Shown here: piece after piece, positions 10,520 to 55,600 of the stretch
Numbering within the stretch: the first letter of the stretch is position 1
Layout of the letters: each line of letters opens with the position of its first letter
Origin: Sipunculus nudus
Taxonomy: Eukaryota > Annelida > Sipuncula > Golfingiida > Sipunculidae
DNA length: 64,000 bases
Direction of reading: 5' to 3'
Assembly (NCBI GenBank): GCA_026874595.1
Contig: CM049307.1
Span: 95,392,330-95,456,329, forward strand
Notes under the pieces: model-generated
Database searches by the model: none
Seen by the model: the letters and a program-made list of their open reading frames with translations, nothing else
Told to the model about the DNA's origin: nothing
Position numbers and translations under genes: made by a program

Positions 10520-10879
10520 TAAAGGATCTGTTTCTTGAATACTATGTTTTTATTACGGAAGAAATATGCATGTACACAGATAACAGCTGAACTTACAATA
10601 AATTTTAGTCCTCTCAGTTATCCCACATTTAATAAGAAAAAAGTTTGCAATATATCCTATAATAATCAAAAGTGCTTTCCTTTGCCAGAAAGCAGTAATA
10701 ACTACCACATTTATGTGACTATCTTTGTCACAAACAAAAATTTAAAGTTAGCTGTCCCTGAGCAGGCTCTTTATGGTCAGGTAAAATATTTCTGAGATAA
10801 ATGAAGAATAATTATTTTATATTCCATATCCATAATTTATCCTGATTATTTTTATGACACCCTGGACATTCTGAGATAA

Positions 10880-11661: not shown

Positions 11662-11786
11662 TTATTTTCCACAGAATCTTCTGTTAGTAAAAGGGATTAA
11701 AAACATGACCAGAAATGACACCAGGAAATACCCGCCGGCCAAGTAAAACACTGGGTCGTATGAGTCCAATATATGTCGAACATAAC
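11662..11786 (-). CDS. Transporter exon 5 (TM12, C-terminus, stop)
   Basis: Acceptor TTATTTTACAG|GTTATG completes Gly and gives GYVRHILDSYDPVFYLAG, a final hydrophobic helix and the tail NRRFCGK before TAA (11664-11662). Exon 4 ends in a PFAG that joins this GYV in frame. The acceptor is the first unit of the 44-bp array at 11781-12100. Confidence 0.85.
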
Positions 11787-14700
11787 CTGTAAAATAAGAA
11801 AGCATAACTCAGGGTACATACACATAACCTGTAAAATAAGGAAAAGCGTAACTAGAGCTACATATAAATAACCTGTGAAATAAGAAAAAGCGTAACTCAG
11901 GGTATATACAAATAACCTTTAAAATGAGAAAAAGCGTAACTCAGGGTACATACACATAACCTGTAAAATAAGAAAAAGCGTAACTCAGGGTAAATTAACA
12001 TAACCTGTTAAATAAGAAAGTGCAACTTAGGGTATAAACACATAACCTGTTAAATAAGAAAATGCGTTACTCAGGGTACATACTCATAACCTGTAATATA
12101 TATAAAACAGATCTACCCTGCTCATCCCCTGTAGCTAAAAAAAATGAGGGAACATGCCCGCATCCCTCTGTATTAAACACCCCTGTCACAAAGATATAGA
12201 GGATGGATTGTAAACAGCGTATCATGTGGCACATATGCACGTCAACATGGTTAAACGCCCGGTACATCTAAGGTAAGGTACGCTTTAATTTACATGACCA
12301 AAATACAGCCAACATTAAATTTCTCAATTCACAAAAACATTTAGGTTTCAATGTACAGTGTAGTAACAACAGTTTCTCAAATATCAAGAGGAGGAAAATA
12401 AGGTTGCAGACATTGGGAAATATCTGAAAAGCATCTCATAAATTGCTCTATAACGACTTGAGGAACTTAGACGTACCAGCAAACGGTGTTGCTATTAACG
12501 ACGCTAAACCAATGGACACCAAAGAGAGGCCGAATGATCTGCCGATGACGTCATGTCCAAAGAGATCCACGAGTGTTACTGGTAACACAACCACGTGACC
12601 CCCTAAAACGTACACCATAAACTGAATAATACAAGAATTTCTTCACAATTTTTCAGGAGTAAGAAAAGTTTGGTTGGTTTATCTAAGATTACCAACACAT
12701 TGACCCATTACTCTATATACGTTCAATAAAGCGAACTGGAACCTGGCACACAGAACTCTCTCATATGGTTAATCTCTATTATTTCATACATATTATTAAT
12801 TATTTTCACTTTTAAAGATATGCATTAACCTAAAGCAAACCCTATCTGTAGGAACTGTAAAAAAGAGTTGTAAGGATGAAACAAAACTGACAAGATTTTA
12901 CTTGCGATGGAAATGTAAAGTGTGAAGAATTTATCGGAAATCGAAAATTAATACAACCAGGAACTTGACGTAATGTTTTTTCTTTTCATCAAAATACTTT
13001 TTTTCGAAATACAAAATTAAAGAGAAAATTATATTTGTTCCAAAATTTTCACATTTTTTCTTTTATCTATATGTGTGTACATTCACAATGATTTTTTCAA
13101 TTATTTTTTATCTTTATATATATGTGTGTGTGTTTGTACATTCACACTCACCTGTGGCGTATCCTATTACAACAAAGACGGAAAACAAGGACCATAGATT
13201 CCGACATACCGGTATCAAAATAAGGCCCGTAGCAGCCAGGGCTACATTGAATTGATGAAGGTAAAGACGTCTTCCTCGTAACAAAGACACATTACCGAAT
13301 AGACCGACGGTAACTCGACCGAAGAGGCTTCCGATTCCTATACAGAAAACGAACCATTTTGTCTGATCTTTGCTGAAACCCATGTCACTTCCTTTATCTG
13401 GTCCAAAGACGAACATGATAGGATAAGCGAGCTGAGCCATAAATAATGCAAACGTGTACATTGCGAATCGAAGTTTCTTTAAGTGCTTGAAGTCCATAGA
13501 TGCCTTCAGGGTTGCAATTAGTTTTTGTGATATACGTTTTCTCGTTGAATTCCCAGTCTTGTTCAACTTTGACGGAAGTGCGGGATGGAATTCGGGTTTG
13601 TACTCAATTTCTGTAATTTCTCTTTCAATTCTGTCCTTTCCAGAAAATCCTTTAGTGTGACTCCGTTTAGGGAGCACTAACATCCAAAGCCAAATACACT
13701 GAAGGGTTATACCTGCTGTGATCAACATGCAGCCACGCCAGGAATAACGGTTTAACAAGAATCGCACAAAAGGACTCATAGCAAAAACACCAATACTAGA
13801 ACCGGCGCATGATATTCCAGCCGCCAATGCCCGGTTTTTGTTAAAATATTTCTGGACTGAGACACTGGACAAAACGATCAAGAAGGAAAAACCAGCACCT
13901 GGAAGAAATAACATTTTTTTTAATTCTGTGTTTCATTTATATAGAAAATTATTATTCATAAAACGCGCTGCCTATATGGCCTAATGCTGAATGATTTGAA
14001 AAAAAAAAACATTGAGTGAAAGTGAACATGCCGTGAAATATTTAACGTTATTTTCACTATATGCGGGTTTAAATTAATCCATCTAAATTACGAACTAATG
14101 TTCCACTGCAATATTCAGCTCCTGCAAAAATTAGCATGGGTCATATTTTCCCATAAAATGAACTACACATGCACTGTTAAGTGAATATCAGATCAATTTT
14201 TAGATTTAATGTTCCTCGGCTATGTATATGTATAATACACTGGTTTGTATTATCAAATATACTAGTTTCATTCAATGACTGAGCTGATGCATGATTTTCA
14301 CATTTAAGGTTTACCTTAGGATAACTAAACTAAAGCTATTATGTTACTGCATTCATCTAACGTTCAGGTTTTGAACGCGATCATGCTGAAGTTGAATGCG
14401 TGGAAAAGTCATCCCCGTAATTCTTTTACAACCACCACGTAATTAACATCGAAGTACTGAATAAAACCGGCCCTTATCATATTCCATATGTCTAATTGTC
14501 CAACAAGTAACGATTTTAACTTGGTGAAAAAATAATGTTGATGATTCTTTCATCTCTATATTCGTGCACTTGCTTAAACCAAACAGAGCTTTGGGGTAAT
14601 AATAATATCAGGGATCCATTTTGTGTGACAGTGAGCACGTTATGCAACATCATTCAAATTTTTATTTAAGCATAAATGAACATTCTACGGGATCGAGGAA

Positions 14701-16174
14701 GTTAGATCTCTTACATTTCCAAGTTTCCTAAAAATTCTTATTTCTATGTTCGAAACAAAGAATCGATTGATTTATCATTTTTTCCGCTACTTGTTCTTGA
14801 ATAGCTATACTCGCCTGTCATCAAGCCGTAGCCTAGAGTGAGCACGACCAGACTTCGTGCAAAATAAGCGGTAATGAGGCCGCATGTGGATAGAAAGCCG
14901 CCCACGATCCCGGTAGTTCGGAGACTGAACACTTCTAGAAAGGCGCTTGTCATCAATGCTACATGAAATATGGAATATTGCAATAAACCTCTAAAATATA
15001 TAACATAATGTAAACATAATAATGTTAAACAAGGCGAGGATATATCAAATAGACAAAAGGGAAATATTTGTCATATCACAGACGTGACACCACTTATTAT
15101 ATATAACATATTGTTAATATTAATCTTGGATCCGTGTACCCCGCAATGGCTAGATACATTTAAATGCTCAAAACGTTCAGATTTTTTTTCCGGATTAATT
15201 TTTTTTTCTTTTCATTCCTACATCGTGAATGTATTTTTCTTCTTCTAGTAAAAAGAAATTAGAAGCAAATGTGATTTGTATAAACTGCCTGCAAATATAC
15301 CACTTTAAATTGGACGTGGGAAAGTATAATATTCCAGTACAATTGTATGTTATCAACCAACCGATATGCTGGTCGAACGCTAATACGAAGGCATACCAAT
15401 CAAGCTGGTTGATAATGTTTTAATTGAAATATTTTAATTAAAGGGCAATACAATCAACCGTTAACAGTCATTCTATTTCCACGCATAATTCATACCATTC
15501 AAGCGAAACAGCAGAACAGGCACACGCGCCGGTGCCTTTACACAACCAAGACCTAGCATAACGTCAGTCTCAGCCGTCACTGAGGCTAGTGACGTCTAAC
15601 ACCCAATGAGTCCTGCCATTTCTTTGTGGGCCGAAGAGTCACTGAACATAGTGACATTGCGCGAATCATGATGCTTGTCAATTTCATTCACGGGCTTTGC
15701 GTCACAACACAACGGTCACGTGAGGGGCTGATGTGAGCCCACTTTTTTAGATCAGTGTGTACAAATATAGCCGGGAAGCGATATGACGATGAGTGACGTG
15801 TCGCCCTGCATACTGGTCGGCCGGAGCTCTGTAATTAGTTGATTACACACGTGACCGGTTAATAGCAGGTAATGAACAAACTACTAGTATTTAAAAGATT
15901 TATGAAATCACCTACCTCCAAAGTGTGTCATAAATATTTGGATAGCTCCCGGCCATGTCAAACTTGACGCATCAGCAGCAAAGTATGACTTGATATCTTG
16001 GTAGATGACGCCATACGCAGTCTGAATCCCATCAACAACTAAACACGTTGCAAAACTTACTGCCAGAACCAGGTAGCTGTACCATGTTTCCTTGATTTTA
16101 GAAGCTGCTGTCAGGGGGCGCTCATGGTCGCTTTGTAAGAACTCATCGTCCGCTGTCCTTTGTTCGCCAGACAT
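11662..16174 (-). CDS. Monocarboxylate transporter-like MFS protein (SLC16 type), five exons
   Basis: A plasma-membrane major facilitator of about 472 residues, probably moving a monocarboxylate or similar small solute with protons; the substrate is not shown. Exons (minus strand): 16174-15916, 14958-14815, 13898-13152, 12621-12477 and 11786-11662. Exon 1 holds the N-terminus and first membrane segment. Exons 2-3 give TM2-TM6 and the SLC16-type motif KYFNKNRALAAG..CAGSSIG. A basic loop of about 70 residues separates the two halves, and TM7-TM12 follow. The DGGWGW-like TM1 motif is absent; DGIQTAYGV stands in its place, as in divergent members. Junctions 1/2, 2/3 and 4/5 are in phase. Junction 3/4 is off by one base with the obvious sites, so a small exon, an odd splice site, an assembly indel or a damaged gene must be considered. 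Confidence 0.85.
11781..12100 (-). repeat. 44-bp minisatellite carrying eight copies of a 3' splice site
   Basis: Eight units 42-44 bp apart. On the minus strand each carries a pyrimidine-rich run and AG followed by GTTAT, like the real exon 5 acceptor. Exon-first bases would be 11786 (real), 11828, 11872, 11916, 11960, 12004, 12046 and 12090. The remaining unit sequence is like GTACCCTGAGTTACGC. The array lies at the end of the last intron and overlaps the exon edge. Confidence 0.9.
12477..12621 (-). CDS. Transporter exon 4 (TM10-TM11)
   Basis: Acceptor ATTATTCAG|TTTATGG; encodes FMVYVLGGHVVVLPVTLVD then LFG...GRSFGLSLVSIGLASLIATPFAG, matching the late SLC16 segment. The donor is GCTG|GTACGT. 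The end phase fits exon 5, but the start is phase 0 while exon 3 leaves one base. Confidence 0.8.
12622..13151 (-). other. Intron 3 of the transporter gene
   Basis: About 530 bp, AT-rich, with a (TG)n-like stretch next to the donor (13115-13140). Because the flanking exon phases disagree, a micro-exon of length 3n+2 could be hidden here; none was identified by eye. Confidence 0.7.
13152..13898 (-). CDS. Transporter exon 3 (TM4 to about TM10)
   Basis: The largest exon, 747 nt, starting at TTCCAG|GTGCTGG. It has the conserved YF.K.RALA.G...AGSSIG segment after TM4, a WRGCMLI helix, a hydrophilic loop with KRISQK and basic clusters, then FAMYTFALFMAQLAYP (TM7), TKWFVFCIGIGSLFGRVTVG and a further two helices. 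It ends GCCACAG|GTGAGT with one base left over. Confidence 0.9.
13899..14814 (-). other. Intron 2 of the transporter gene (GC-AG)
   Basis: About 916 bp of AT-rich sequence with no repeat or other gene recognised. It starts GCGAGT and ends TTCTTCCAG on the minus strand. Confidence 0.75.
14815..14958 (-). CDS. Transporter exon 2 (TM2-TM3), GC donor
   Basis: Acceptor ATGTAG|CATTG joins exon 1 as GCA (Ala). The exon encodes ALMTSAFLEVF, then TTGIVGGFLSTCGLI and ARSLVVLTLGYGLMT, the TM2-TM3 region of the SLC16 fold. It ends GACAG|GCGAGT. No GT is available there, and joining at the GC restores GGT (Gly) with exon 3 (LMTG-AGFSF), so this looks like a genuine GC-AG intron. Confidence 0.85.
14959..15915 (-). 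other. Intron 1 of the transporter gene
   Basis: About 957 bp, GTAGGT to ATGTAG. The 15470-15830 part is more GC-rich, with paired GTGACGT and TCACTGA words that could form hairpins; no element was identified. Confidence 0.75.
15916..16174 (-). CDS. Transporter exon 1 (start codon to first TM region)
   Basis: Begins at the ATG (16174-16172) with MSGEQRTADDEF, an acidic hydrophilic N-terminus of about 30 residues, then a first membrane segment WYSYLVLAVSFATCLVVDG and the start of the TM2 region. It ends ...HFG + g at the donor G|GTAGGT. The phase (one base left over) fits exon 2. There is no in-frame upstream ATG evidence to prefer a different start. Confidence 0.85.
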
Positions 16175-16199
16175 ATTCTGTTGATATGTTATTGGCCGA

Positions 16200-18540
16200 C
16201 TGCTTGAAATGAAAATATATTTATTTATTTACACGTTATTTTGATCCTAGCTGATACTTATTTCCATGAAATAAATATTGTGATAGCTCCATAAGAAAAA
16301 ATACATTACGTTATCTATAAAAATATCAACTGCCCGAGTGATGTCTGTCTATATGTCACAAGATTGAAACTCTGAGGTATAAATACCCTCGATACTGAGA
16401 TATGTATTGTTTACCTTTTATACTTTTCAGTGCGATTACAGAATATATGCCTACCGGAAATTGGATAAATATGAAGGGAACGCTTTTCATTCTAAAGAGG
16501 CAATACATAAATACAGCAACTCAGGTTTATTCGGGTGTCGTGGCGATTTGTAAATCATAAAGTCAATATTTTACGTCATATCCACTTTTCGATATTTTAC
16601 TTGGAGTTATAAATCTAATAGGTACCTGTACTAAAATCGTAGCAGTAGGGGATTTGGTAAAAAAGCCAGAAAATTAATTGATAAATAAAGTACGGCGTGT
16701 TTAATATTAGACACGAAAATGTGATAACGTACATATCTTTCCTGCTATCGAATAATGCAGCGCACTGTTAGATTACAAATGAGTCCCTTTCATATCACGA
16801 GAACATCCCATAATTGAACTACAACATATTGGAGATTTCTTACTGAAAATTGCTGTTAGAATAATGACGAGCACAGCTGTCATAAGCATCGGGGGAATCA
16901 TAATAAACGACGGCTTTACATGTCATAGGCAGTCAATGTGTTGAGAAATAGAATACAAGTAGGACGCATGTGTAAACATTGGTTGTATTATCTAAATACC
17001 TGATCAATACTGGTACACCAACTGTCCACTGGTCAGACCACCGACGCCCCTGAGGGAGTGTGTATGGAAGGCCAGCTTACCGACTATTATTGTATCTTCT
17101 CCGATCGGTCAAAGCTTATGGTCATGGACGCCCAGCTTAATCTCACCCACACCAATATATAGCCATTAGTGGAGGCGATAAGATATCAGTGTCTATAATC
17201 CAGGCAATAAAAAACTTAAGAAATCGTCTGCTTTTCGTGTGCACGCTGTGCTGTATTTCCGAGGCAGATCGTACACATGAGTAGTTAACAACTGGCAGAT
17301 TATATAGCTGTGTTGATTGAATGACTGAGCAATCCTGAAAAACGCAATCCTCGGACGACACAGTCACCAGTGTTGACCGGTCGGGGGATGTGAGGACACT
17401 GAAGAACAACGGCCTGCGCCAGACAATAGGACAAACACAAGTACCCGGAATGACAATCAAATGCCCGATTCATAACACTTCCACCAGATGTTGTCTCTAC
17501 TCATAATTGATCTCTTCCAGCCAGGCAGTGTGGGACTGCCCGGACTACTTTCTCAACTGTCAAACTTACAAAATCAAAATTTGTTACATTTCAAGTTTAC
17601 ACCTTTTGTTTACATTTCACATGCGCATAATTACTAATAATTACTGGTTTCGTGAAGTTCTTACCAATAAAAAACAATCATGTTTAAAGGGGTCCAATCA
17701 CCTATGTGATCGTTAACTAAAAGTAATTCTTTTTAGCTGTCCTAAAAAAATAGGCCAGAAAACGTGGATAACACAGCTCACAGGCTGCTTGTTATGTTTA
17801 TATGAACGTGTTCATAATATGTGGGGGCCCGCCAAAATCATCAAAACAAATTCAACAAGGGCATATGGCAGCACGTTAGATAAGCCAGAGCCTTTACGAA
17901 TGCCATTTTGCAGCAAATGACCTTTCTACCTTAGTATATATGCAACCTACCACCTTAGGTTACATGGTTTTCCCGTTTCTCAACATTGCCGTGTTCACAA
18001 ACATGTTTTTGATTAACAAGTTCACACATCCTTTACGAAGGCGTTATAAGAACTTTCTGAACCAAAATTACCCTAAGATCATTAATAGATCGAGGAAGCC
18101 CGAAATTATATAATTAAATTATCATAAGGAAGTGAATGAGCACCTTTAACTACTTAAGCAATTCTTATACAACGTATTTGAACGGGCTATGTTACCATCT
18201 TCATTATATTTATACTAACGCCATACGTTCAAGTAGGATCCGCGAGGCATTGTGGGCCGTCGATTAAAAAAAATCATACACCCTAACCAGAAGTATCGTT
18301 CTCTTGTGAGTCCGATTCTACCCCGTGTGCCGATTCGCGTGATGATGTTTCCGACCCTACAAAACTTAGTGCTATATTTCATAATAATGGTGTGCCAATT
18401 AATCGGTAACTTGTCGTATTCTTTCATAATCGATTAAATCGATTGGAATTTAGCAATGTCGATCATAAACGATGATGTATGCACATCCAAAGATGTCATA
18501 TAGACCCGATAAAGTACTTTTATTCTGTCAGAGATTTACA
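16200..18540. other. Region upstream of the transporter gene, nothing recognised
   Basis: Presumably holds the transporter promoter and any 5' UTR exon. No confident core promoter was found: a TATTTATA word on the minus strand near 16380 is the only TATA-like candidate. Frames in this stretch are short and unrecognised. Confidence 0.4.
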
Positions 18541-25620: not shown

Positions 25621-26098
25621 CATCACCTGTAAAAGAGGGGGGGGGGGGGCCTAGAGAGTTAGGTTAGATTATCTGCAATCGACCTCTTTCCTTTACTGTC
25701 CTTTTCCTACATAGGACCCCCTAGTGCAGAATTAACCGTTTTCAGTTCTGATTATAATATCTAAGATCAGAAAAGTCTGAAGAATCCTTAGGAATTAAAA
25801 TCGACTTTCCAGACTTAAGATGTGTAATAAAACTGCTGAGATTAGGGTCCTCACTTTGGGCCAGTTTGATGTCTACAGTCGGTACAATGACTTCTGCCAT
25901 TAGAGGAATTTATGATTGTGTCATAATTATATGTTTATTTGTTGGTAATAAATAAGCAACACATATGGCTTTTACCATTTTAGATGAATAATAGCTACCA
26001 CTCTGGGCCTGAGAAAATCACGGTCATGGGGGAGGACGGGATAGAATATCTGCATCCACTTTCTCCCGGCCTGCCCTGTACACAATATTAAAATGAGA

Positions 26099-31849: not shown

Positions 31850-34740
31850 AACCTCTAATTTAACTGTTTCAGGTGATATATGCTCTATGGGTGTAGCTAC
31901 GTAAAGCACCTGTATGTGCATATGGGCACACAGACTGCACTGGGGCAGTATAGTATATAGTATAAATAGTTTACCCTTGCAAACAGCTCTTTTTCCACTC
32001 AAGGTCGTTTATATTTCGTCAAATGACATTATAAACCATATGATAGGATAGGCCTAGAATTAGATTGAGCCATATTATGCCCCCAAAACGGATATTGTAC
32101 CACCTTTTCATATTGTCGATATGAATGAAAATTTGCTTTGGTCTCATATGTTAACCAAAAAATGTTTCACCTCGGAAACAATTTTGAACTTTTATACCTG
32201 GTACAGAAACACATTGAAGAGAAGTCTCATGGGTTGATTGCATGATAAATATAGCCACATATGGTTTATTTAATGTTATATGCCTCTATTGAATAAGTTT
32301 TCACACTGTTGCACCCTGTAAATATTTTTATGAAACAGCTCTTTTCCATGCAAGATCCTGTATATCAAATCTAATGTCAGTTTAAACCAGCATAGAATAT
32401 CATTGTAAACAATAATTTTGCACACAAAAAAATGATATTTTTTGTCCTATATTTATACTGTACATATCTGCGGAATGCAAAGTTTTCAAACTATCGCATC
32501 CTGAAAATATTTTGCTTTTACAAACAGCTCTCTTTCACACAAAATTTTGTATATTAAGTATGATTAAAGTATGAACCAGTATAGACTTTATTGTTCGAAC
32601 ATTTTCAACTTTTTAAAATTGTCGGTATGATTGATATGTTACTTGGGTCTCAGTTTTAACCAATAAAGGTATCACCATGGAAACAGTTAATTTTACTCAT
32701 ATTCCTGATACAGAAACATATGAAAGAGACACGTTTGATGGGTGCACTACATTTAAAAATAGCCCCATTAGCTGCATTCATCTTATACATGTCAGTGGAA
32801 TGCATAATTTTCAGACTGTTGCAATCTTTAAATATTTTTACTATTGCATACAGCTCCTTTTAAGATCCTGTATATTTAGTCCAACGCAAGTATAAACCAG
32901 TAAAAGGGATAGAGCTGAATCTAAAATTGGCTGTTTTTTTTTCCTTTAAAAAAATGGAAATTTTTCAACTATTCAACATTGTCGGTATGATTGATATGTT
33001 ACTTGGGTGTCAAGCATTAACCTATAAAGCTATCACCATGGAAAAAAATTAATTTTTGCTTATATTCCTGATACAGAATGACTTAAAAGAGAAAAGTTTA
33101 ATAGGTGCCCTGCATTAAAAGTAGCCCCATGTGCTGTGTGTTTATGTTTTACATGTCAGGCTAATGCTTATTTTCAGACTGTTGCACCCTGTAAATATTT
33201 TACTTTTGCAAACATATCTTTTCCATTCAAGATCCTGTATATTGGGTCTAATGCCAGTATAAGCGAGTAACAAGACTAGAGCTAAATCTAAATTTGGCTT
33301 TTTTTTTGCAAAAAATAGAAAATTTCAACTTTTTAACACTGTCGGTATGATTGATATGTTACTTAAGTCTCAAGTTTTAACAAATAAAGGTATCACCATG
33401 GAAACAGTTAATTTTACTCATATTCCTGATACAGAAACACATGAAAGAGACACGTTTGATGTATGCACTGCATTAACATTAGCCCCATGTGCAGCATTCA
33501 TCGTATACATGACAGTGGAATGCATACTTTTTAGACTGTTGCACCCTGTAAATATTTTACTTTTCCAAACAATTCTTTTTCACTCAAGATCCTGTATATT
33601 TGGGTCCAAATCCACAATCAACCAGTAAAGAGGATAGAGTTAAATCTAAATTTGCGTACTTTATGGCCAAAAATTGTTATTTTAATTAACATTTTCACAT
33701 TGTCGCTATGATTGAAAACTTGCTTGGGTCTCAAGCATTAACCAATAAAGGTATCACCATGGAAAAAGTTAACTTTACTCATATTCCTGATACAGAAACA
33801 CATGAAAGAGACAAGTTTGATGGATGCACTGCATTAAAATTAGCCCCATGTGCTCCATTCATCTGATACATGTTAGTGGAATGCATCTTTTTGAGTCTGT
33901 TGCACCCTGTAAATATTTTACTTTTGCAAACATCTCTTTTCCACTCAAGATCCAGTATATTGGATCTAATGGCAGTATAAACTAGTAAAAAGGATAGAGC
34001 TAAATCTATATTTGGCAATTTTTTTGGCAAAAATGGAATCTTTTTAAATTTGTCGGCATGATTGATGTTACTTGGTTCTCACTAATTAACCAATGTATCA
34101 CCATAGTAACATATATTTTTACTTATATTCCTAATACAGATTCACATGAAAGAGAAAAGTTTAATAGGTGCCCTGCATGAAAATTAGCCCCATGTGCTAT
34201 GTTCATGTTTTACGTGTCAGTCTATTGCACAGTTTCCAGACTGTTGCACCCTGTAAATATTTTCTTTTGTAAAACGCTCTTTTCCACTCAAGATGCCAGT
34301 ATGAACCAGAAAAGAGGATAGAGATAAATCTAAATTTTGCAGTTTTTTTTTTTGGGAAAAAAATGGAAATTTTTCAGCTTGTTCACATGGTCGGTATGAT
34401 TGATATATTGCTCTGGTCTCAAGCATTAACCAATAAAGGAATCTCTATGGAAACAGTTAAATTTTACTTTTATTCCTGATATAGAATCACATGAAAGAGA
34501 AAAGTTTAATAGGTGCCCTATATGTGCTATGTTCCTGTTGTACAAGTCAGTCTGATGTTTAATTTTCAGATTGTTGCACCCTGTAAATATTTTACTTTTG
34601 TAAACAGCTCTTTCCCACTCAGGATCCTGTATATTAGGTCTAATGCAAGTATAAACCAGTGCTGTGCCTTAACAATAGCCACCTCAGGCTTGCAAGTGGA
34701 ATGCACACTTTCCAGGGTGTTGCACTAACAGGCAGCTCTC
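31850..34740 (+). repeat. Tandem array of a ~350-bp unit (about eight copies)
   Basis: The word GCACCCTGTAAATAT or a variant recurs at 32311, 32496, 32821, 33183, 33541, 33902, 34246 and 34576, mostly 325-362 bp apart. Each full unit also has CTCAAGATCCTGTATATT, TGTCGGTATGATTGATATG, AAAGGTATCACCATGGAAAC, a CATATTCCTGATACAGA run and TAGCCCCATGTGC. The outer units are shorter and more diverged. Short frames starting at CACCATGG recur because the unit recurs; stops break them and I do not regard them as genes. Confidence 0.9.
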
Positions 34741-51258: not shown

Positions 51259-52480
51259 ATGGCAGATTTCAAACCTGAGACATTTGTTGTCGATCCCGAC
51301 CCTGATCAACTTGGACAGTTGTCAAAAGGACAGTTGTTGCGTTTGGGACAACACTTGGGGCTGAGTGTGATATCATTGCTAACATCCTGCAAGATCTTAT
51401 TAGCAAAGGTTTAATTGAAGTGACTGAAGTTGAAACATTAAAAAATGATAGCCTTGCTATGCAATTGGAAGTAAAGAAGTTAGAAATGCAACATGAGCTA
51501 GCATTTAAACAGTTAGAATTAGAAAAGAGAAGAGAGGGAAGAACATGAAATGTTAGAAGGAGAAAGACTAGAAAAAGAAATAGAAAGAGAGAGACTAGAA
51601 AAAGAAAAAGAAATTGAGTTAAAACGACTGGAGTTAGAAAGACTTAAAGTAGAACATAGTCTACGTGCTGCCCCAACTCACAGTTTTGATGTTACAAAAT
51701 ATATTAGACTTGTCCCACCTTTTCAAGAAAAAGAGGTTGATAAATATTTTTTACACTTTGAGAAGGTAGCTGAAAATTTAAAATGGGCTAAGGAAAATTG
51801 GACTGTGTTGTTACAAAGTGTATTGACTGGCAAGGCCAGAGACATTTATACAGAGCTTTCAGTAGAAGCTGCTGCTGACTATGACCTGGTAAAACGGTTA
51901 GTCCTAAAAGGTTATGAGTTAGTTCCAGAGGCTTACCGCCAGAAATTCAGAAATTGGGAAAAGCGCAAAGAACAGACCTACGTCGAATTTGCTAGGACAA
52001 AAGAGCATTTGTTTGATCGCTGGTGTAGTTCTAAAAATTTAATGAAAGATTATGACAATTTGCGCCAGTTGATTTTGCTTGAAGAGTTTAAGCTCTGCAT
52101 TAATGCAGATGTTAAAACTTTTCTCGATGAGAAAAGTCCTGAAACACTTGACATTGCTGCTCAATTAGCTGATGATTATTCATTAACACGCAAAATGTCC
52201 TTTACTAGCAAATCAAACCAGTCATTCACAAACAAGAATGGAAATCAGTATGGTCAAAAGAAGTTTAAAGCGCAGTCAACCAGTACAAGTAGTCCAGATA
52301 GTTCAACAAAGCCCATAGCTACACCTCAGTCCACGTCCAATTTGTCTAAGTCCAACAAAGACCAGTCATTTTCAAAGAAAATCAGTAATTACTGCAAGAA
52401 GTAAAGTCATCTAATATCTGACTGCTGGAAAATTGCGAATAGAACAAATAGCAGACCTTCTGGTTTTGTTTAAAAATCTA
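51259..52480 (+). pseudogene. Gmr1-like gag (disrupted)
   Basis: Starts at the ATG 51259 with MADFKPETFVVDPDPDQLGQ. A frame change near 51358 and another near 51530 lead to the long 3' part (51550-52404), a charged coiled-coil stretch rich in E, K, L and R followed by a capsid-like helical region (FLHFEKVAENLKW to AQLADDYSL). It ends in a nucleocapsid CCHC knuckle at about 52392-52432 that has lost its first Cys (now Ser) and gained a TAA stop inside. The structural protein would package element RNA; this copy is non-functional. Confidence 0.8.
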
Positions 52481-52864
52481 TGCATAGCATAGTACAAGAG
52501 CCAGGCTCTTTTCATGCAAATAAGGGGTAAAACTCCTTTATTGACTAATAAAGAGTTTGATGCTACGGAGGCCCACGTGCCTTCTAAATCCAAAGAAGAA
52601 TCCGTAACTTGCGGGGTAAAAACCTCAGTTGATTCCTGCGAGGAATTAAATAAGACTAGGTCCTATCAAGACTCCTGCGAGCAGTGTTTTCTAAATAAGG
52701 CTTAGTCATTTTATGACTCTTGCGAGAGTATTTCAAATGAGGCGAGGTCCTCTTATGACAAACAAAAGTTTGTTTCTGCTGAGTAAAATTCCTCTGTTGA
52801 CTCCCATGAGGAGTTTGATGATAAAAAGGATGTAGATTCAATAGATGACTCTGAAACAGAGTCT

Positions 52865-53300
52865 ATGACTGACAATGTCAATGTCAGTTCTTTGTTTGAT
52901 GAGGGGGAGGCAGTAGATTCCTCTCTAGACTCTGAAATGGAGTTATTTGAGCCATTCATACATGATGGTTTTGTACTACTTTCGAGTGATTTTTCAGATT
53001 CTACCCCTATTAGAATTTTGAGGGACACTGGTTCAGGCCAGACATTCATGTTAGCAAACACTTTGTCATTTTCTGGTAGGTCCTTTACTGGTGCACATGC
53101 ACTTGTTAATGGTGTGTTTTCAGACAGGCACACTTCAGTTCCGCTTCACAGTATCCATTTAAAGTCAGATTTGATATCCGGGAATATTACTGTGGGCATA
53201 AGAACTTCTTTACCCTTTAAGGGATTTCAGTTGCTACTAGGCAATGATTTTGCAGGTGATAATGTACAGCCTGTACCAATCGTGACAGAAAAGCCGTCAC
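52865..53300 (+). pseudogene. Gmr1-like aspartic protease
   Basis: Within an open frame of 347 codons (52865-53908). The active-site DTGS box is intact (53023-53034), followed by a QTFML strand and the later LLLGNDFAG motif expected near the end of retroelement proteases. It would cut the polyprotein. Upstream 52480-52865 is an acidic Ser/Glu-rich linker broken by stops. Protease and the start of integrase share the same frame. Confidence 0.75.
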
Positions 53301-53589
53301 TTGATCAGGACACCGATCTGGAAAGTCAGGAAATTCCTGGTTTGTATCCTTCATGTGCTGTAACTAGATCTATGGCCAAGAAAAACACACATGAGGATAA
53401 TGGTCCAGATAATAACACTCTGGGAGTCACTAGTGACTCGTCTAACGACTCGCCCGTACAGGATGCAGCATTCTCAAGGTCAGAACATATCGCGGAACAG
53501 CATAAGGACCCTGATATTTCATGTTTGTTTCCCAGGGCAGTTTCGATAGATGAACTTTCACAGTACCCAGTTTGTTTCTATGTTAAAAG

Positions 53590-54901
53590 TGGAGTGCTTA
53601 TGCGTAAATGGCGACCACCTGATGTATCGGCCATCAAACATCAAATAGTAATATCCAAAAGCTTTCGCAATGATATTCTAAGCATGGCACATGAGGCTTC
53701 TTTGTCTGGCCATTTAGGTATAAATAAAACTTATCAGAAAGTTAGCCATACATGCCAGATGGTAGGCAAGCCCAATCAGAATCCTTCTAAGGCCCCACTT
53801 AGGCCTATTCCTGCTTTCGAGGAACCATTCAGTAGGATTATTGTTGATTGTGTTGGACCACTGCCCAAAACAAAATCTGGACATGAATACTTGCTGACAA
53901 TTATGTGAGCATCTACCAGGATCCCTGAGGCAATACCATTGCGCAAAATAAATGCCAAAAGTGTTGTCAAAGCTCTGACCAAAATTTTTAAAAACGTTTA
54001 GATTACCAAAATCTGTCCAGTCTGACCAAGGATCAAATTTTATGTCTGGCTCATTCCAACAAGTTATGCTTGAGCTAGGTATAAAACAGTAAAGCTCATC
54101 GCCATACCATCCTGAAAGTCAGGGCGCCCTTGAGCGTTTTCACCAGATATTAAAAAACATGATAAGTACTTCTTGCTATGACACACAGAAAGACTGGGAT
54201 GAAGGAATCCACCTATTGCTGTCTGCTGTCAGAGAAATCTTTCAAGAGTCCTTGGGTTTCTGTCCCTCTGAACTAATTTTCGGACATGGACCTCGAACGG
54301 AACGTCCATTGAAACTGCTTAAAGAAAAACTCTTGTGTGAAAATCCTGATTCTCTTAATTTACTGCATTATGTCTCAGCCTACACAAACTACACAATGCT
54401 TGTGAGATTGCAATGTCAAATCTAAAATCTGCACAAAGTAAAATGAAAACAAAGTATGACAAGCACACTGTAAGTAGGACCTTTGAACCTGGTGAAAAGG
54501 TTCTTGTCTTATTTCCCATCCCTGGCAGACCTCTGCAAGCAAGGTATTTTGGTCCTTACAGGGTTGACAAGAAAGTCAGTGATTTAAATTACATACTGTT
54601 GACACCAGATAGACGTAAGAAGAAACAAATGTGCCATGTTAACATGTTGAAACCATATTATGACAGAAATAGCACATCAGATGTTGTACAAAATGTTACT
54701 GCTGTTAATTGTGTAAAAACTGACCCTGACCGTGTCAAGATAGATACTGATTGTAAGTGGGATGTAGACATTCAGTGTGGTACAGTGCCATTAAAAACTC
54801 AGACGTGCTTAAAAACCTGGATGCCAAACTGTTACACCTTACCGCACAACAACAACAAGATCTCAAGAACCTGCTGCGGATATATGAACGTTTGTTTATG
54901 A
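53590..54901 (+). pseudogene. Gmr1-like integrase, upstream of RT (disrupted)
   Basis: The zinc-binding head has HEASLSGHLGINKTYQKV but then jumps straight to HTCQ, so the segment with the first Cys is missing. The core Asp is in RIIVDCVGPLP (53838-53870), the second in SVQSDQGSNF (about 54017-54046) and the Glu in YHPESQGALERF (about 54103-54138), all visible. A TGA replaces a codon at 53906, a frame change follows near 53998 and a TAA at about 54090. The C-terminal part (54413-54690) has a GPY-type motif ARYFGPYRV. The enzyme would insert the cDNA; it is disabled here. Confidence 0.85.
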
Positions 54902-54916
54902 CATTCCAACGCGTAC

Positions 54917-55600
54917 TAACATGTTATGCAATGACGTCGATGTTGGCGAGGCAAGCGCAGTCAAGCAACATCCTTATAGACTGAATCCAGAAAAACAAAA
55001 GTATCTACAGGATGAGATTCAATATTTGCTGGACAATGATTTTATTGAACCTAGTAACAGTAACTGGAGTTGACCATGTATTCTTGTGCCAAAACCTGAT
55101 GGAAGTTACCGTATGGGCACAGATTATCGAAAACTGAACTCTGTCACAAGACTGGCATGTTCCCGATTCCAAGCATCGGTGATTGTATTGAAAGAGTCGG
55201 TAGCTCCAGGTATGTTTCCAAGTTTGTCTTGCTCAAAGTATTCTCGCAAGTTCCGCTGACGGATCGAGCGAAGGAAGTGTCCGCATTTGTCACGCCGCAA
55301 GGACTGTACCAGTATAAAGTTATGCCGTTTGGCATGAAGAACTCGCCAGCCACGTTCCAGCGCCTCATCCATATGGTTGTCAAGGACATTCAGGGCTGCG
55401 ACGCAAATATTGATGACCTTATTGTGTACAACGACACCTGGAAGAAACATTTGCAAATTCTTCGCGACCTCTTCGAAAGACTCAATGAAGCACGTCTGAC
55501 TGTCAATTTAGTAAAATCTGGGTTTTGTCATGCACAAGTAACATTTTTGGGCCATATTGTAGGGCAGGGTCAGGTAAAACCTGTGATGCTAAGATGAGTG
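54917..55600 (+). pseudogene. Gmr1-like reverse transcriptase (disrupted)
   Basis: Frames join the integrase at about 54,920 (NDVDVGEASAVKQHPYRLNP). A TGA stands in the SNWS.PCILVPKPDGSYR stretch, and a frame change follows before MFPIPSIGD. The first catalytic Asp of the D-L-x-x-G-Y box is replaced by Val (KFVLLKVFSQVPL, 55219-55257). The later box reads NIDDLIVY (55409-55432), keeping both Asps. QYKVMPFGMKNSPATFQRL is intact. Polymerase activity is excluded by the lost Asp alone. Confidence 0.85.

Follow-up and report, generated by a model that had tools for sequence, protein, structure and literature searches.

Tandem repeats that copy an intron/exon boundary have been described in lancelets as "mirages", in the genes for Adh3, the globins BflGb6 and BflGb9, troponin C and PGBD5 (PMC3087553, PMC3902484). 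The Adh3 mirage has units of 10–72 bp and a somatically unstable length, and that of BflGb6 has units of 150–160 bp, six and three in its two haplotypes, which repeat the 3' end of the intron together with the exon start (PMC3087553). According to these reports, mirages seem not to disturb its regular course in the Adh and globin genes (PMC3087553); normal splicing of troponin C is cited in the PGBD5 report, which supposes the same for PGBD5 itself (PMC3902484). Many mirage repeats carry AG/GT, and the globin authors allow that these could act as cryptic sites (PMC3087553). Copy number in the PGBD5 mirage differs between assemblies (PMC3902484).

Two further systems bring acceptors into competition. 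In the human CBS allele 844ins68 the intron 7/exon 8 junction is duplicated, giving two copies of a splice site of which the distal one is strongly favoured (PMC2630376); the passage concerned speaks of a "donor", and the title of the work that it cites says 3' splice site. In NAGNAG tandem acceptors, adjoining acceptors compete for one donor, and pairs as close as these are reported to be chosen at the second step of splicing (PMC9225289). Among the open-access papers searched, which cannot prove absence in print, we came upon tandem arrays of a splice boundary in lancelets only.

The locus described here is a minisatellite that lies across the last intron/exon boundary of a transporter gene. 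Like the lancelet mirages, it consists of minisatellite-type copies of such a boundary, many of them with splice signals. The lancelet cases concern other genes, and normal splicing and length variation have been reported for them. The genome that carries the present array has 1.43 Gb, about three times the size of a lancelet genome (about 0.5 Gb), and the host is probably another animal. Identity is 81–100% among BflGb6 units (PMC3087553) and 74–93% among the seven full units here. The CBS allele likewise duplicates one splice site, but it is a human polymorphism with a single extra copy of 68 bp, against seven extra sites in the array. NAGNAG acceptors are 3 nt apart, whereas those of the array are 42–44 nt apart and have a tract each, weak at position 12090. 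The units span the exon–intron boundary, carry splice signals and, at 44 or 42 bp, fall within the 10–160 bp reported for mirages. Judged by these anatomical features the array appears to resemble the known lancelet mirages, to which the transporter would add another gene.

The host gene and the repeated boundary

The window, by which we mean the whole stretch of 64,000 nucleotides analysed, holds the gene on its minus strand (Table 1). The predicted protein matched MFS_1 in Pfam (E 6.3e-30) and, among solved structures, monocarboxylate transporters 1, 2, 8 and 10, with MCT2 (E 5.8e-28) and MCT1 (E 1e-27) as best matches. The MCT2 alignment continues across the exon 4/5 junction (ATPFA/GYVRHILDSYDPVFYLAGG), so that the 11786 acceptor is well supported, and the range matched by MCT1, 53–463, also spans this junction. 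Membership of the MFS family, with an MCT alignment that runs through the exon 4/5 junction, identifies the gene as an SLC16 monocarboxylate transporter. Exon 4 ends in phase 1. From the general architecture of MCTs and from the hydrophobic run in exon 5, we take TM12 to lie in that exon. Polyadenylation-type words (AATAAA or ATTAAA) occur on the minus strand between 11662 and 10500 only at 10633 and 10554.

Two peculiarities were seen at other introns. Intron 2 apparently starts with GC (cag/GCGAGT at 14815/14814, minus strand) and would be a GC-AG intron, since the homology-supported frame (LMTGAGF) needs that junction. Near the start of intron 3, an imperfect direct repeat of 25 nt (84%) lies at 13054–13129, with the donor itself outside it.

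Table 1. Positions in the window of the transporter gene, the array and the decoy acceptors (for decoys, the first exon base)
Feature	Position	Strand	Description
SLC16/monocarboxylate-transporter gene, coding part	11662–16174	minus	466 aa, five-exon model
Transporter exons, coding	16174–15916, 14958–14815, 13898–13152, 12602–12477, 11786–11662	minus	stop included
Intron 4	11787–12476	minus	690 nt; array forms its 3' part
Intron 4 ends	12476 (donor); just before 11786 (acceptor)	minus	donor ctg/GTACGT; acceptor ttacag/GTTATG
Exon 5, coding part	11662–11786	minus	true acceptor 11786; GYVRHILDSYDPVFYLAGGYFLVSFLVMFLIPFTNRRFCGK then stop (presumed TM12)
44-bp minisatellite astride the intron 4/exon 5 boundary	11780–12100	minus	TRF: 7.4 copies, 83% matches
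Decoy 1	12090	minus	weak TATATATA tract; predicted tail GYEYVP-stop
Decoy 2	12046	minus	predicted tail GYVFIP-stop
Decoy 3	12004	minus	predicted tail GYVNLP-stop
Decoy 4	11960	minus	predicted tail GYVYVP-stop; scores level with real site
Decoy 5	11916	minus	AAAG; predicted tail GYLYIP-stop
Decoy 6	11872	minus	other frame, reads on to stop ending 11697; 483 aa, long hydrophobic tail
Decoy 7	11828	minus	predicted tail GYVYVP-stop; highest score among the eight

The repeat unit combines roughly the last 37 nt of the intron with the first 7 nt of exon 5. Its consensus, GTATGTACCCTGAGTTACGCTTTTTCTTATTTTACAG/GTTATGT, comprises a U-rich tract, AG and the seven exon bases, plus a possible branch region picked out by eye. 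Eight AG/GTTAT sites follow one another on the minus strand at spacings of 44, 42, 44, 44, 44, 44 and 42 bp, the last being exon 5's own acceptor. There are seven full units, of which two measure 42 bp, and alignment of the array brought out no full unit beyond those with AG/GTTAT sites. With up to 3 mismatches, the 18-mer acceptor core matched nine times in the window (eight times in the array and once at 25621) against 0.15 expected, a count reached by none of 100 shuffles; a 20-nt spacer from the unit, with up to 5 mismatches, gave seven window matches, all inside the array. AG/GT is present at all eight sites, which had been found by that motif, and CAG precedes seven of them, decoy 11916 having AAG. 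Likeness to the unit stops at exon base 7: among the following 44 nt, 9 match, which is about chance.

The outermost site, 12090, resembles the others mainly at the acceptor end, where 13 of its last 17 intron bases match the unit, as does the exon start. Twelve of the 617 ACAG sites in the window reach 13/17, seven inside the array and five elsewhere, and kinship of this site with the array units is likely but not sure.

A sequence-only reading of this DNA had described a 44-bp minisatellite repeating the last exon's 3' splice site eight times, with acceptors 42–44 bp apart and the real one as final unit, and the TRF array, the minus-strand site positions and the shuffle test agree with it. 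Its statement that each unit keeps a tract, AG and GTTAT stands for AG and GTTAT at the eight sites, and needs refining for the tract at 12090, which is weak.

The array is read from one assembly, and in view of the assembly-dependent copy number of lancelet PGBD5 (PMC3902484) it could be in part an artefact, with a repeat miscounted or haplotypes merged. The units differ from one another, so that a simple read-stitching error is unlikely, and we hold an artefact of this kind to be very improbable.

Decoy acceptors and the choice of splice site

Splicing of exon 4 to six of the seven decoys is predicted to add GY, three residues, P and a stop, and so to yield proteins of 431 aa without TM12. 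The earlier claims that seven decoys precede the real acceptor, that six of them end early and that the one at 11872 reads through were all confirmed by these readings (Table 1). Stops in a last exon are not expected to elicit exon-junction-dependent decay. The decoy stops fall in the apparent last exon, so none would be expected for the decoy mRNAs.

Acceptors and donors were scored with approximate matrices. The scores are a weak guide, as the accepted acceptors of exons 2 and 4 themselves score low, reaching merely the 80th and 85th percentile on the approximate matrix. On this matrix, the eight sites from 12090 to 11786 scored −0.3, 3.6, 3.6, 6.7, 1.9, 7.0, 7.1 and 6.7, so that decoys 11960, 11872 and 11828 equal or beat the real site; sequence alone leaves the choice of the latter unexplained. 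Elsewhere in intron 4, AGs scoring above 0 are those at 12182 (2.9), 12134 (1.4) and 12128 (5.8), and inside exon 5 there is one at 11680 (2.9). The folded RNA of the array is no more stable than shuffled sequence, as 83 of 100 shuffles equalled or exceeded its stability (z +1.04).

Published rules do not predict that the distal site wins and, if anything, lean the opposite way. Where the branch point is distant, the spliceosome is described as seeking the first downstream AG (PMC1431707). Between competing acceptors separated by 20 nt or more, a transcriptome-wide study of internal exons reports an overall preference for the upstream one, weaker under exon definition, with the choice typically set at initial recognition (PMC9225289). 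High decoy scores and this upstream preference make substantial use of the decoys plausible, in which case "tolerated" would be too mild a word for the array.

The array could then be a splicing rheostat, with decoys used at a real rate and array length setting the ratio of full-length transporter to the TM12-less GYxxxP form. The U-rich tract and AG in every full unit, CAG at seven of the eight sites, the three decoys that score as well as 11786 on the approximate matrix, and the same type of short tail from six of the seven decoys are all consistent with such a role. Evidence on the other side comes from divergence among the units and from paralogues, and is given below.

A different use of the decoys would be recursive splicing, in which exon 4 is first spliced to a decoy, G/GTTAT is thereby regenerated and acts as a donor, and the intron is removed unit by unit, as by a ratchet. 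AG stands before GT at each of the eight sites, and the normal mRNA would be restored without a trace of the re-splicing. In ratchet points, the acceptor stands directly before a GTAAGT-like 5' splice site. The regenerated donors (CTG/GTTATG or GTTATT) lie at the 68th–71st percentile of GTs in the window on the approximate donor matrix, below the three GT donors of the transporter, which are at or above the 99th. GTTATG and GTTATT are thus weak as 5' splice sites and do not qualify these sites as ratchet points; recursive splicing appears extremely improbable.

Divergence among units and the wider gene family

Substitutions were counted over the seven full units, with two 2-nt gaps scored as unchanged, and amounted to 25 in 308 cells. 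The CAG/GTTAT block had 1 in 56 against 24 in 252 elsewhere (Fisher P 0.059), AG alone 0 of 14 cells (25 of 294 elsewhere; P 0.61), and the spacer 16 of 140 cells (9 of 168 elsewhere; P 0.061). Column permutation gave P 0.056 for the CAG/GTTAT block and P 0.67 for any window of eight columns, and the longest invariant run, of 7 columns, had P 0.24. A slower-changing splice core, which would suit a rheostat, is thus borderline, and seven units give little power; the decoy signals are without significant conservation, which argues against a rheostat.

The decoy tails speak against it too. Among the seven tails, 12 codons depart from the commonest one, and 9 of these replace the amino acid, 2 are silent and 1 loses the stop; codon comparison of the seven made no protein-level constraint visible. 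Mean unit identity at lags 1 to 6 was 0.845, 0.847, 0.861, 0.843, 0.814 and 0.929, the last from one pair, with no steady fall over distance, and the order of duplication is unreadable from the similarity of neighbours. The pattern fits an expansion that would have been followed by independent, near-neutral drift.

The window lies at C2:95392330–95456329 of the 1.43-Gb genome, in which a search that passes over very common words matched the array DNA only to itself. Genome-wide, the 18-mer core matched 18 times, 5 times in the array and 13 times elsewhere, and a control with the reversed pattern matched 12 times. A dispersed satellite or mobile repeat was rejected as source of the units: that search gave no copies beyond the array, and the core occurred elsewhere at control level.

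The transporter belongs to a large family, with at least 107 exon-level matches genome-wide (91 of 655 candidates scored). It is heavily expanded on one chromosome, C2, at about 76.6–80.4 Mb, 84 Mb and 95 Mb, and a number of the matches have stops. The 264 kb surrounding the gene hold nine clear other copies on the same strand. The stretch from exon 4 to exon 5 could be read in seven of them, those near 195 and 217 kb of the joined string having no exon-5 match; two weak exon-5-like matches, near 233 kb and near 264 kb, lie outside this set. At exon 5 of the seven, TRF listed no arrays with a period of at least 20. Four further stretches were inspected: exon 5 was present in three, none with an array, and was not found in L041. 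Exon 5 was thus free of the array in all 10 paralogues inspected (seven neighbouring and three further), another point against a rheostat. This distribution suggests that the array most probably originated in this gene, unless other copies have lost it.

Some neighbours are damaged, by an in-frame stop in exon 4 (at about 180 kb) or loss of the end of exon 4 (at about 72 kb), and the copy near 95 kb of the joined string has no clear exon-5 acceptor. The transporter could itself be decaying, the array then reflecting lost constraint on the last exon, as several neighbouring copies are partial or have stops. In this gene, however, each of the five exons is open and the match of the protein to transporters extends over the exon 4/5 junction, and we consider decay quite improbable.

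The closest relative is a partial duplicate, at L033 and its neighbours (194164–197120 of the joined string, about C2:95486493–95489449), with 88% identity to window positions 14508–17510 over 3 kb that cover exons 1 and 2 and the upstream region. Exons 3–5 were not found in the roughly 6.5 kb before the next copy. With exons 1 and 2 alone present, this relative was unusable for dating the array.

Other repeats were surveyed for similar features. Among eight arrays checked in the window, only that at 11780–12100 held three or more high-scoring splice-like sites. TRF listed 45 rows of period 20 or more in the 264 kb, some for the same array, and two held three or more such sites, one of them being the array at the transporter. 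The other, at L021:3–1368, repeats a 249-bp unit 5.5 times and has seven donor-like sites with high scores on the minus strand. The window also contains a 361-bp tandem repeat of 5.9 copies at 32601–34660 and, on the plus strand at 51523–55597, pieces of a Gypsy-like retroelement, the first frame of which encodes a SCAN domain. In these pieces an integrase zinc-binding domain stands ahead of the reverse transcriptase, an order that we take to be that of Gmr1-like elements.

Reading and bearing of the array

The array is probably a tolerated minisatellite of the mirage type, an accident and not a switch. The intron 4/exon 5 boundary would have been multiplied in tandem by slippage or unequal exchange, leaving seven extra, near-complete 3' splice sites in intron 4. 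Enough normal mRNA would still be made through the 11786 acceptor, altered transporters from any use of decoys would stay in the minority, and drift of the array would be near-neutral.

The sequence-only reading had left two branches, that the array tunes splicing or that it is tolerated because the distal site wins. The tolerated branch is favoured because the splice core lacks significant conservation as the units drift, because 9 of the 12 codon changes in the tails alter the residue, because the paralogues have no array and because of the lancelet precedents, for which normal mRNA is reported (PMC3087553, PMC3902484). Tuning by a rheostat is less favoured, and we judge it unlikely. That copy number, perhaps varying between individuals or cells, should act as a heritable dial for the share of the TM12-less GYxxxP form, in an animal that is not a lancelet, seems to us decidedly unlikely. 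Against the tolerated reading stand the decoy scores, the published upstream preference and, as a borderline observation, the lower variability of CAG/GTTAT (P about 0.06).

The array amounts to a natural competition assay, with eight similar acceptors 42–44 nt apart, one donor and one functional answer. Transcripts of this animal would tell directly which acceptor wins, be it the first, the strongest or the one nearest to the exon. If the host is not a lancelet, the case suggests that mirages are not peculiar to lancelets, and mirages beyond that group bear on the origin of new introns and exons through tandem duplication of splice sites.
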